64,000 nt of DNA. Source: Lachnospiraceae bacterium (GTDB lineage: Bacteria; Bacillota; Clostridia; Lachnospirales; Lachnospiraceae). The DNA is taken from contig SVFD01000005.1 of NCBI GenBank assembly GCA_015057025.1, positions 124,001 to 188,000 of the forward strand, written 5' to 3'. The notes beneath the pieces were generated by a model. The model was given only the letters and a program-made list of their open reading frames with translations. It was not told where the DNA came from and ran no database searches. The position numbers and the translations under genes were made by a program. Shown here in pieces: positions 37,195 through 41,504 of the stretch. Each line of letters starts with the position of its first letter. Position 1 is the first letter of the stretch.

Positions 37195-37465
37195 TAAATG
37201 CGATGAAGGAATTATGCGTCGTTTGGCAGTTTCAGAAAGTCGGCGGTTGATGCGAGCCGATACTTAAGGACGAAGGCAGTCTCACTCCGGAGCAGAATTC
37301 TCGAACAAGATTGATTCAGTAAAGAATTCCGGCAAGCACCGTTATCAGGGCTGCGAATATGATGGTATTCGTAATGAGCGACTGTATCTACAGTAATATG
37401 GGTGGTACCGCGGTAAAAGTTGATTTATCGTCCCTAGAATCTGAAAGGATTCTAGGGACTTTTTG
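37195..37465 (+). promoter_or_regulatory. T-box leader, apparent Leu (CUC) specifier
   Basis: Stem I is followed by the specifier loop with CTC at 37281-37283 (then ACTCCGGAG, the same spacing as in the other T-box here), the conserved box GGGTGGTACCGCGG (37400-37413, TGGT pairs with ACCA) and a perfect 12-bp terminator GTCCCTAGAATC/GATTCTAGGGAC (37430-37441, 37448-37459) plus T-run. Uncharged tRNA-Leu should promote read-through into the 2-isopropylmalate-synthase-like gene. Confidence 0.92.
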
Positions 37466-37507
37466 TTATGGCAATTCATTATTATATATATAAAGGAGAG
37501 AAAGAAA

Positions 37508-38932: not shown

Positions 38933-38972
38933 ATTAAAATATCCGAAAACGGATAGGAATAGGAGATAGATA

Positions 38973-41504
38973 ATGAAATTATCATTTAGTACAAACGGCT
39001 GGGATGATTTTGACTGGACAGACTTTTATGTAACTGCCAAAGATTTGCAGTTCGATGGTATTGAAATCCATGATGTAAAAAGAGAAGTATTCTCCGGCAA
39101 AAACCGCCCTTTTAACAGCGAAAATATTGTAGAAACCGCACATAAACTGGCACAGATGGAATTAACCATTCCCTGTCTGGATACTACCTGTGATGTATCC
39201 GATGAAACCAAGATTGAAGAAAATGTTGCTGAAATTGAAGAATATATTAAGATTGCTAAAATCGTAAAATGTCCCTGCATCCGCATCCGCGCAGGAAAGC
39301 ATTCCATGGATACCGATGTGAATGATGATGCGGTTATTGAGTGTATCAAGAGAACTTATCGTGAGGCAGATAACAACGGCATTTCTATTTTGATTGAAAC
39401 TGTAGGTCCTTATACTGATACAGAACGTCTTCGCAATGTTTTAAATGTATTTGCCCGTGACAATGTAGCTGCATTGTGGGATATCCACCATACCGTACGT
39501 TACGGCAATGAAACACCCGAAAAGACCATCCAGAACTTAGGTGCATACGTAAAACACGTACATATCAAGGATTCTGAAGTGGTTGACGGCAATATTGAAT
39601 ACTCTTTAATGGGAGAAGGTACCTTACCTATTGATGAGTTAATGTTGGCTTTACAGTCTGTTAACTATGAAGGTTATGTTTCTTTTGAATGGATTCCCGC
39701 ATGGTTGGAAGAATTGGGAGATGCAGGCATTGTATTTCCTCACTTCGTAAATTATATGAGCCAGTATCAGAAGGAAGCCGTAGTTGTAGGTAAGTCTTTA
39801 TACCGCAATAAAAGAGGTACCGGCCAGTACGTATGGAAGAAGGAAGAAATCATTGACAAAACCTTCCCTCAGGTATTGGACCGTATGGTTGAGGAATTTC
39901 CTGACCAGTATGCATTCCGCTATACAACCTTGGATTATACAAGAACTTATTCCGAATTCCGCGATGACGTAGATCAGTTTGCGCGTTCTTTAATTGCTTT
40001 GGGCGTAAAATCCGGTACTCACGTGGCAGTTTGGGCAACCAACATTCCTCAGTGGTATATCGCTTTCTGGGCTTGTACTAAGATTGGTGCGGTTTTGGTT
40101 ACCATGAATACCGCTTATAAAATTCACGAGGCAGAGTATTTGCTTCGTAATTCAGATACACATACCTTGATTTTAATCGACGGTTACAGAGATTCTAATT
40201 ATGCACAGATTATTCAGGAATTGTGTCCTGAGTTGGCAACCAATGTACCCGGCAAAGCGTTACATTGTAAGAGATTACCGTTCTTGCGTCACGTAATCAA
40301 TGTAACTTCTAAGCAGCCCGGCTGTTTAACCTGGAGTGATGCGCTTGCTTTAGCTGATAACGTGCCTATCGAAGAAGTATATCGTCGTGCATCTTTGGTT
40401 GATAAGCATGATGTATGTAATATGCAGTACACCTCAGGAACCACAGGATTCCCCAAGGGTGTAATGCTTACACACTACAACGTAGTAAATAATGGTAAGT
40501 GCATCGGTGACAGAATGGATTTGTCTACCGCAGACCGTATGATGATTCAGGTGCCCATGTTCCACTGTTTCGGTATGGTATTAGCCATGACAGCCTCCAT
40601 GACACATGGTGTTACCTTATCACCCATACCTTACTTCTCAACCAAGCCTGCATTGGCATGTATTAATCAGGAAAGAATCACCTGTTTCCACGGTGTTCCT
40701 ACTATGTTCATTGCCATGCTTGAACATGAGGATTTCGAAAAGACGGACTTCTCTTACATGCGTACCGGTATTATGGCAGGTAGCCCTTGCCCTATTTCCG
40801 TTATGCAGGATGTAGTAAATAAAATGAACATGAAGGAAATCACCATCGTTTACGGTCAGACCGAGGCTTCCCCCGGATGTACCATGAGTACTACCGACGA
40901 TCCTTTGGAAGTCCGTGTAGGTACCGTAGGCGGTCCACTGCCCGGTGTTGAATGTAAAATTGTTGATCCTGAAACCGGCGAAGAAATGCCTGTAGGTGAA
41001 AATGGTGAATTTGTAGCAAGAGGCTACAACATTATGAAGGGCTACTACAAAATGCCTCAGGCAACCGCAGCGGCAATCGACAAAGATGGTTGGCTTCATA
41101 CCGGCGACTTAGCTTGTATGACTCCCGAAGGAAACTTCCGTATTACAGGACGTTTAAAAGATATGATTATCCGTGGCGGTGAAAACATTTACCCGAAGGA
41201 AATCGAAGAATTTATCTACACCCACGATAAGGTAAAAGATGTTCAGGTTATCGGTGTGCCTGATGAGCAGTTAGGCGAAGAAATCATGGCTTGCGTGGTT
41301 CCCAAGGATGGCGAGACCTTAACTGAGCAGGATATCAAAGATTACGTACGTGCCAATATGGCAAAGCATAAAGTACCTAAGTATGTGGATATTGTTGACG
41401 GTTTCCCTATGAATGCGGCAGGTAAGATTTTGAAATACAAGATGCGTGAGGCAGCAGTTGAAAAATATGGTTTGGCTAAGGCTGACAGTATTGAGACTGC
41501 GTAA
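38973..41504 (+). CDS. TIM-barrel isomerase/epimerase fused to acyl-CoA ligase
   Basis: Protein of 843 aa. Residues 1-270 form an AP-endonuclease-2-type TIM barrel (sugar-phosphate isomerase/epimerase or hydroxypyruvate-isomerase like) with apparent metal ligands E142, D170, H197 and E239. Residues about 290-840 form an AMP-dependent acyl-CoA synthetase: YTSGTTGFPKGVMLTHYN, YGQTEASPGCT, HTGDLACMTPEGNFRITGR, IIRGGENIYPKEIEEFIY and the catalytic Lys region NAAGKILKYKMRE. All key ligase motifs are present, so it is probably active on a fatty or branched acid. It is second gene of the Leu T-box operon. I know of no characterised pathway that uses this fusion. Confidence 0.88.
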   Translation: MKLSFSTNGWDDFDWTDFYVTAKDLQFDGIEIHDVKREVFSGKNRPFNSENIVETAHKLAQMELTIPCLDTTCDVSDETKIEENVAEIEEYIKIAKIVKCPCIRIRAGKHSMDTDVNDDAVIECIKRTYREADNNGISILIETVGPYTDTERLRNVLNVFARDNVAALWDIHHTVRYGNETPEKTIQNLGAYVKHVHIKDSEVVDGNIEYSLMGEGTLPIDELMLALQSVNYEGYVSFEWIPAWLEELGDAGIVFPHFVNYMSQYQKEAVVVGKSLYRNKRGTGQYVWKKEEIIDKTFPQVLDRMVEEFPDQYAFRYTTLDYTRTYSEFRDDVDQFARSLIALGVKSGTHVAVWATNIPQWYIAFWACTKIGAVLVTMNTAYKIHEAEYLLRNSDTHTLILIDGYRDSNYAQIIQELCPELATNVPGKALHCKRLPFLRHVINVTSKQPGCLTWSDALALADNVPIEEVYRRASLVDKHDVCNMQYTSGTTGFPKGVMLTHYNVVNNGKCIGDRMDLSTADRMMIQVPMFHCFGMVLAMTASMTHGVTLSPIPYFSTKPALACINQERITCFHGVPTMFIAMLEHEDFEKTDFSYMRTGIMAGSPCPISVMQDVVNKMNMKEITIVYGQTEASPGCTMSTTDDPLEVRVGTVGGPLPGVECKIVDPETGEEMPVGENGEFVARGYNIMKGYYKMPQATAAAIDKDGWLHTGDLACMTPEGNFRITGRLKDMIIRGGENIYPKEIEEFIYTHDKVKDVQVIGVPDEQLGEEIMACVVPKDGETLTEQDIKDYVRANMAKHKVPKYVDIVDGFPMNAAGKILKYKMREAAVEKYGLAKADSIETA

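Follow-up and report, generated by a model that had tools for sequence, protein, structure and literature searches.

What is the function of an operon that answers to leucine, encodes a homologue of 2-isopropylmalate synthase (IPMS) devoid of the metal-binding His pair and couples it to an acyl-CoA ligase? Such an operon lies in a stretch of 64,000 nucleotides (nt) from a Lachnospiraceae bacterium (assembly GCA_015057025.1, genome size 2.65 Mb; contig SVFD01000005.1, positions 124,001 to 188,000), hereafter the window, where a T-box leader precedes gene A, encoding a pseudo-IPMS, and gene B, encoding a fusion of a TIM barrel with an acyl-CoA ligase. We propose that it probably activates isovalerate, under the control of leucine, to feed the isovalerate carboxylation route to this amino acid, with the pseudo-IPMS as a leucine-sensing regulatory subunit. 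The module is real and widespread and its pathway role is well supported; we further infer the substrate of the ligase, the direction of the carboxylase, a complex of the two proteins and inhibition by leucine through gene A. The first-pass annotation of the window had pictured an acyl-CoA reaction under the control of leucine supply, in which the ligase supplies the thioester, the IPMS-like protein condenses or cleaves it and the TIM barrel isomerises the product. The leucine control is borne out below and the ligase is judged the likely source of the thioester; the two other catalytic roles are not supported.

Structure of the operon

The features of the operon are as follows (aa, amino acids).

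37147..37175, + strand: sigma-70-like promoter, TTGACA-17-TATTAT (consensus match only, 11/12)
37194..37438, + strand: leucine T-box leader, RF00230 (111.7 bits against a gathering threshold of 93, E 7.5e-24)
37281..37283, + strand: specifier codon CUC (Leu), placed by stem I covariance model and alignment
37401..37412, + strand: antiterminator T-box bulge GGTGGTACCGCG, starting 107 nt upstream of the ATG
37430..37464, + strand: intrinsic terminator, hairpin and T run
37508..38932, + strand: gene A, pseudo-IPMS of 474 aa, homologous to class I IPMS but lacking the HxH metal motif
38522..38902, + strand: LeuA_dimer (leucine-binding) domain, gene A residues 339-465 (PF08502, 102.9 bits, cut-off 24.9)
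38973..41504, + strand: gene B, TIM barrel/acyl-CoA ligase fusion of 843 aa (AP_endonuc_2, AMP-binding, AMP-binding_C)
38973..39722, + strand: xylose-isomerase-like TIM barrel, residues 1-250 (PF01261, 93.5 bits)
39879..41426, + strand: AMP-forming acyl-CoA ligase, residues 303-818, proposed isovalerate-CoA ligase (PF00501, 318 bits; PF13193, 74 bits)
41545..41573, + strand: terminator-like hairpin 3' of gene B (consensus match)

Rfam covariance match, specifier, antiterminator bulge and terminator are all present in the leader, in line with the T-box and CUC specifier first annotated there, and this anatomy shows uncharged tRNA-Leu as the predicted control of operon transcription. The terminator hairpin (37430-37459) has 13 bp and a stability of -22.3 kcal/mol that none of 200 shuffles equalled. 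Sigma-70-like sites are hardly commoner in the window (17) than in shuffles (mean 14.1), so that it is its position that supports the promoter at 37147-37175. The leader thus has the Rfam match, codon, bulge and terminator of the leucine T-box class, whose usual targets include leu genes and leuS, and differs in controlling an acyl-CoA ligase module.

Loss of the catalytic site and retention of the leucine-binding domain in gene A

Gene A consists of an HMGL-like and a LeuA_dimer domain. The metal His pair is present in the solved IPMS structures 3rmj, 3ewb, 6e1j and 3eeg; in an ungapped alignment to 3rmj and 3ewb, HCH corresponds to TCS in gene A, i.e. both His are lost (T201 and S203), and the catalytic motif RDGEQ reads RESSE, as had been noted at first. 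No alignment shift restores the pair.

Relatives were gathered from two sources (L and G numbers denote loci and genomes). The family sample comprised 299 genomes, 17 of them with a gene A match at E<=1e-40; G219, whose sole match is a true IPMS with HxH, was excluded, leaving 16 carriers with the window's genome included; G226 likewise has a true IPMS among its matches. In the named collection, at least 581 stretches encode a gene A relative, a number that may include other IPMS-like proteins, and the best 80 of these, mostly from metagenome-assembled genomes of Clostridia, are referred to as the named loci. Many of their titles mention ruminant or horse gut sites, the closest being L067, from a Lachnospiraceae bacterium of roe deer rectum (gene A identity 95%); L068 and L072 apparently are contigs already in the family sample, and L126 comes from the named, cultured strain Bittarella massiliensis. 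A TIGR00973 search of 60 family genomes returned one match at E<=1e-100, probably because the family mostly uses class II LeuA, and for this scarcity the class I IPMS control set was drawn from the wider class: 30 loci, of which all but one passed a filter on length and HCHND residues, leaving 29. By construction this filter sets the control HxH count, but the domain identities are unaffected by it.

Among 81 pseudo-IPMS, none has His at position 201 (0/81) or at position 203 (0/81), compared with both His in 29/29 controls, which had been filtered on HCHND. Position 201 is occupied by E, Q, S, R, K, T, D, G and others; position 12, the Arg of RDGEQ, is Arg in 38/81 and otherwise variable (29/29 in true IPMS), and position 13 is variable as well. 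Conservation is inverted along the protein: among the 81 pseudo-IPMS, the barrel has a mean pairwise identity of 0.44 and LeuA_dimer (residues 339-470) one of 0.69, against 0.60 and 0.46, respectively, among the 29 true class I IPMS. The leucine domain, rightly described at first as well kept, also retains G391/G393 and the C-terminal glycine-rich stretch. The closest family models, PRK00915/TIGR00973, are matched below cut-off, and gene A misses the NCBIfam equivalog cut-off for IPMS (best 332 bits against 532). In the tree, all pseudo-IPMS group in one clade (92/92, support 0.993), from which the 31 true class I IPMS are separate. The AlphaFold2 model (mean pLDDT 88.7) has its best Foldseek matches in methylthioalkylmalate synthase, LeuA and IPMS, expected families only.

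Gene A thus shares with class I IPMS (LeuA, a DRE-TIM metallolyase) the fold, the domain order, LeuA_dimer and the closest sequence family, and differs by the missing HxH (81/81), the lost RDGEQ, the inverted conservation and the separate clade. Because the defining metal motif fails, it is, as judged from sequence, not an IPMS, and the alignments show a predicted retired isopropylmalate synthase, with a dead catalytic barrel and a retained leucine-binding LeuA_dimer domain. True IPMS bind leucine through their C-terminal domain, the pockets lying at the dimer interface (PMC11057210; this and the other articles cited are represented by the portions of their text that were accessible).

The barrel is still selected for something, as D8, D141, R144 and D169 are invariant in the 81 proteins; E43 is found in 77/81 and the PVSxVQMEY stretch is retained in the consensus. 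A surface or pocket under selection could be that of a new metal-free reaction on the acyl-CoA made by the ligase, but the former active-site positions 201, 12 and 13 drift where a new active site should be conserved, the conserved part is the leucine domain, and a leucine T-box with ligase occurs in two stretches in which gene A was not found (L211 and L212, described below). New enzyme chemistry, including the condensation or cleavage first suggested for gene A, was for this drift rejected as the most likely reading, and we regard it as improbable.

Association of gene A with gene B

The fusion gene stands directly after gene A in 79/80 named loci, the gap measuring between -1 and 142 nt; in the remaining locus, the contig stops 216 nt past gene A. 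The pairing seen in the window is strongly conserved.

Within gene B, the ligase is complete, as initially described: both AMP-binding N- and C-terminal domains are present, and the motif TSGTTGFPKG and K818, which we take to be the P-loop and the C-terminal Lys of AMP-forming ligases, are invariant in the 68 fusions aligned (12 truncated fusions, and L125, which lacks the fusion, were left out). The AlphaFold2 model (mean pLDDT 85.9) matches acyl-CoA ligases in Foldseek. Mean pairwise identity among these fusions is 0.75-0.77 for the ligase and 0.44 for the TIM domain. The quartet E142, D170, H197 and E239, presumably the Glu/Asp/His/Glu metal ligands of xylose isomerase-like enzymes, is intact in the window; the intact metal site that had been claimed for the barrel thus holds there and does not extend to the family, where the quartet is complete in 29/68 fusions and incomplete in 39/68. 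At family level the domain does not qualify as a xylose isomerase-like metalloenzyme, and a conserved isomerase acting on the product was discarded for the same reason.

The quartet is intact in 4/4 aligned stand-alone relatives and in one fusion whose fetched stretch has no gene A. Stand-alone TIM relatives with an intact metal site also occur in genomes of other families (L213-L215), with no match to the gene B ligase within the fetched stretch. An Amidohydro_2 protein was observed beside the module in 20/80 loci (e.g. L109:12897-13706 and L043:4410-5237; see also L211:6884-7705).

Two further stretches carry related operons. In L211 the genes behind a leucine T-box encode, in turn and separately, the ligase, an unfused TIM barrel whose metal site is intact and an amidohydrolase, and in L212 a leucine T-box goes with the fusion; gene A was not found in the fetched stretches (12 and 14 kb), the rest of both genomes being unsearched. 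Judging from these stretches, gene A looks accessory. The operon could then make leucine from another acid (e.g. a hydroxy or unsaturated one) that requires both the TIM barrel and the amidohydrolase, as the intact stand-alone metal sites, the 20 loci with Amidohydro_2 and the neighbouring separate genes of L211 would suggest; we give this little credence, since the metal site is incomplete in 39/68 fusions while the ligase remains about 75% identical. For activation of isovalerate under leucine control, the simplest order of events would be a leucine-controlled ligase, its fusion to the TIM barrel, recruitment of a dying IPMS and decay of the TIM metal site. By their sequences, both barrels appear to be decaying, the ligase and the leucine-binding domain being conserved.

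Distances of the pseudo-IPMS barrel and of the TIM domain were compared over 67 loci. They are correlated (r 0.75; partial 0.64 given the ligase; 0/999 permutations), more strongly than those of the pseudo-IPMS barrel and its own LeuA_dimer domain (0.48). This is as expected if both barrels touch, and contact is hinted at, short of proof. The same correlation would fit a gene A that assists the ligase in the same pathway purely as a structural component or activator, unresponsive to leucine, all the more as leucine binding by gene A itself is only predicted. We consider that version unlikely, since LeuA_dimer is the best conserved part of gene A (with its glycines retained) and the RNA leader already makes the operon responsive to leucine.

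T-box codons as labels of the products

Specifier codons were surveyed by applying a stem I covariance model to the window, to the 80 named loci and to 15 further loci. The model was trained on 13 leaders, including those of the window, L065, L172 and L174; L068 and L072, judged by their identical lengths, apparently are training contigs, and loci of the training set match by construction. A T-box was found before the pseudo-IPMS in the window and in 61/80 named loci (n=62), and 61 of these 62 have a Leu specifier (47 CUC, 14 CUG), which supports the first-pass view that leucine supply controls the module. A second type of acyl-CoA ligase, preceded by or fused to an XRE-cupin protein, stands behind T-boxes that are all Ile or Val (33/33, i.e. 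16 AUC, 10 GUA and 7 GUC; Leu 0). All three T-box classes, each with its own ligase, occur together in L084, L104, L117, L135, L137 and L139 (6/80), as well as in L208. According to these codon classes, the three branched-chain amino acids pair with three ligases. These seven loci are compact, and VorB is close by in 5/7.

The XRE-HTH and cupin domains are fused to, or encoded just before, the MbcS-like ligase (L080:17295-19406, L120:13394-15661, L065:2826-5087), and this N-terminal region may correspond, for Ile and Val, to the leucine sensor. The two such ligases scanned have NF047394 (MbcS) as best match, below cut-off (436 and 338 of 850 bits).

Neighbouring genes

Neighbours were counted by tblastn within the fetched flanks of the 80 named loci, many contigs being short. 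A 2-oxoacid:ferredoxin oxidoreductase of VorB/A/C or single-chain type (VOR/PFOR) lies near the module in 41/80 loci, a branched-chain aminotransferase (ilvE) in 27/80 and an XRE-cupin acyl-CoA ligase in 34/80; among the 41 loci of at least 17 kb, these numbers are 29, 19 and 27, respectively. Aminotransferase and VOR or PFOR occur together in 24/80 loci, where ligase, oxidoreductase and aminotransferase, i.e. the set for a pathway from branched acid to amino acid, are united. Example neighbours were identified with hidden Markov models (VorB 541 bits, cut-off 399; ilvE_II 415, cut-off 250; TIGR02176 1701, cut-off 911). With 2-7 POR_N matches per genome (17 genomes), a random segment of 19 kb would, as a rough yardstick, hold such a match a few per cent of the time. 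The window's genome has, on another contig (L168), a cluster of VorBAC with an XRE-cupin ligase and, in L065, an XRE-cupin ligase behind an AUC T-box.

Ferredoxin oxidoreductases can work in either direction, and the ligase could serve branched-chain fatty acid synthesis or branched-chain amino acid breakdown instead of amino acid synthesis. MbcS, the best-named relative of the XRE-cupin ligases, does serve branched-chain fatty acid synthesis in Staphylococcus aureus (PMC10026030). We find this very unlikely here, because T-boxes turn on at amino acid scarcity, the recurrent neighbours are an aminotransferase and an oxidoreductase with no fatty acid synthesis gene found among the identified recurrent clusters, and the carriers mostly lack LeuD.

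Other elements recur near these genes. A P-loop NTPase resembling ParA/CbiA, about 230-250 aa long, stands before VorB in 32/80 loci (L080:14017-14709, L168:6355-7104); the one protein scanned had no family above cut-off. Two tandem Clostridiales-1 RNAs follow directly after an XRE-cupin-type ligase in L172 (10209-10526, - strand), and in the window a TwoAYGGAY RNA lies at 25784-25949 (- strand, 102.7 bits).

Classical leucine genes in carriers

In the family sample, 12/16 carriers have no other LeuA_dimer protein. At a match threshold of E<=1e-10, LeuD is absent in 29/299 genomes, i.e. 13/16 carriers and 16/283 non-carriers (p=1.7e-12); with genomes restricted to at least 90% completeness and at most 5% contamination, the numbers are 12/14 and 10/232 (p=7e-13). 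These p values are inexact as the genomes are related, the 16 carriers spanning 15 genera. Eight of the 13 LeuD-less carriers gave no LeuD match, and in the other five (G211, G229, G234, G285 and G298) LeuD matches are weak only and lie in frames of 748-784 aa; the test may take aconitase for LeuD, and genomes with a long match had at least two matches, among the matches listed. Carriers thus tend to have lost the classical leucine route.

The window's genome is a different case. It has a normal leuA, for which the first-pass annotation had advised a check: a class II leuA with HPH and MRDGNQ, adjoining ilvA, leuCDB and ilv genes, LeuD being present, and the T-box in front of this ilvA-leuACDB-ilv cluster reads AUC (Ile) rather than a Leu codon (L055:3995-4247). 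Gene A is not beside leuBCD. Since leuACDB is at hand, the isovalerate route would be additional there.

Proposed mechanism and comparison with known systems

The operon would form the leucine branch of a pathway returning branched-chain volatile fatty acids to branched-chain amino acids. Uncharged tRNA-Leu would cause readthrough at the T-box, and the gene B ligase would convert isovalerate, ATP and CoA to isovaleryl-CoA, a substrate suggested by the leucine T-box and the neighbours. VorBAC or a single-chain PFOR-type enzyme would then yield 2-ketoisocaproate by reductive carboxylation, and a branched-chain aminotransferase would yield leucine; gene neighbourhoods, T-box codons and the loss of classical genes in relatives point to these two steps. 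Gene A most likely docks on the TIM barrel of gene B, and its leucine-bound form would switch the ligase off, so that T-box and allostery together would let leucine control the same step twice. The XRE-cupin ligases behind Ile and Val T-boxes would act likewise on 2-methylbutyrate and isobutyrate. For gut and rumen Clostridia at large we lean, by a little, towards three T-box-addressed ligases sharing one ferredoxin-dependent carboxylase and aminotransferase, with the retired IPMS as a leucine-feedback subunit docked via the decaying barrel.

Several observations weigh against this scheme, which is drawn from sequence. As regards control, no T-box was found before gene A in 19/80 named loci (3/80 have less than 300 nt upstream) or in 5/15 pseudo-IPMS loci of the family sample (the window among the 15), and the sole non-Leu T-box before a pseudo-IPMS (L077, 8733-8834) reads TCC in the alignment and AUC by eye. 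As regards the enzymes, isovalerate as substrate of the window ligase is not readable from sequence, and the best NCBIfam match of this ligase is the generic fatty-acid CoA ligase model PRK12583, below cut-off (694 of 832 bits); no ilvE or VOR was found in the window's own locus, VOR lying elsewhere in the genome; and both single-chain oxidoreductases scanned exceed the cut-off for pyruvate:ferredoxin oxidoreductase, which makes their use of isovaleryl-CoA an assumption. As regards the partners, the distance correlation can stem from shared history, the complex of the two proteins being a prediction only, and the scheme accounts for neither the intact stand-alone TIM relatives nor the amidohydrolase. 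As regards gene loss, the window's genome retains the classical ilvA, leuACDB and ilv genes; in the wider class, 27/50 class I IPMS-positive genomes (counted by eye) also have the TIM protein, either alone or in the fusion; and a class-wide LeuD test was given up, since in families other than that of the window LeuD is outscored by proteins of aconitase size (about 650 aa).

A precedent for the role proposed for gene A is the short-form ATP phosphoribosyltransferase HisZ-HisG, in which a noncatalytic partner has an amino acid pocket; folds and pathway differ. HisZ mediates end-product inhibition of the first enzyme of the pathway without catalysis of its own (PMC9734150). The inverted conservation and the barrel-TIM distance correlation are indirect signs of such a role, and the module most likely operates in the manner of HisZ-HisG.

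Predicted substrate, product and habitat of the module agree with the rumen isovalerate carboxylation route to leucine, which is reportedly named in the titles of papers by Allison from the 1960s on. Older biochemistry showed that rumen bacteria incorporate isovalerate into leucine (PMC7356843); the accessible text of that article describes the route with no genes named, and the module adds a candidate gene set and its control. The activation of a branched short-chain acid resembles that by methylbutyryl-CoA synthetase (MbcS) of S. aureus, the best match of the XRE-cupin ligases, even though these score far below the MbcS cut-off and the window ligase differs in its best match (PRK12583). S. 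aureus MbcS accepts 2-methylbutyrate and isobutyrate and takes isovalerate very poorly (PMC10026030), as would be expected if the leucine branch has a ligase of its own. As late as 2020, an article on Prevotella bryantii, in its accessible part, called the reaction from branched acid to amino acid "not proven yet" and possible via EC 1.2.7.7 (PMC7709123).

Significance

The chemistry of the pathway is already known. In the literature covered (mostly open-access, without preprints), no gene set for the isovalerate route was found among the matches listed, nor were the operon, the IPMS-like protein or the trio of T-boxes and ligases found named there. The regulation would be unusual, an enzyme being kept solely as sensor for the pathway that replaces it. 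Isoacids are in use as a ruminant feed additive (PMC12272956). The operon provides candidate genes for the isovalerate route, labelled with their products by the T-box codons, and these would allow predicting which species use branched-chain acids.

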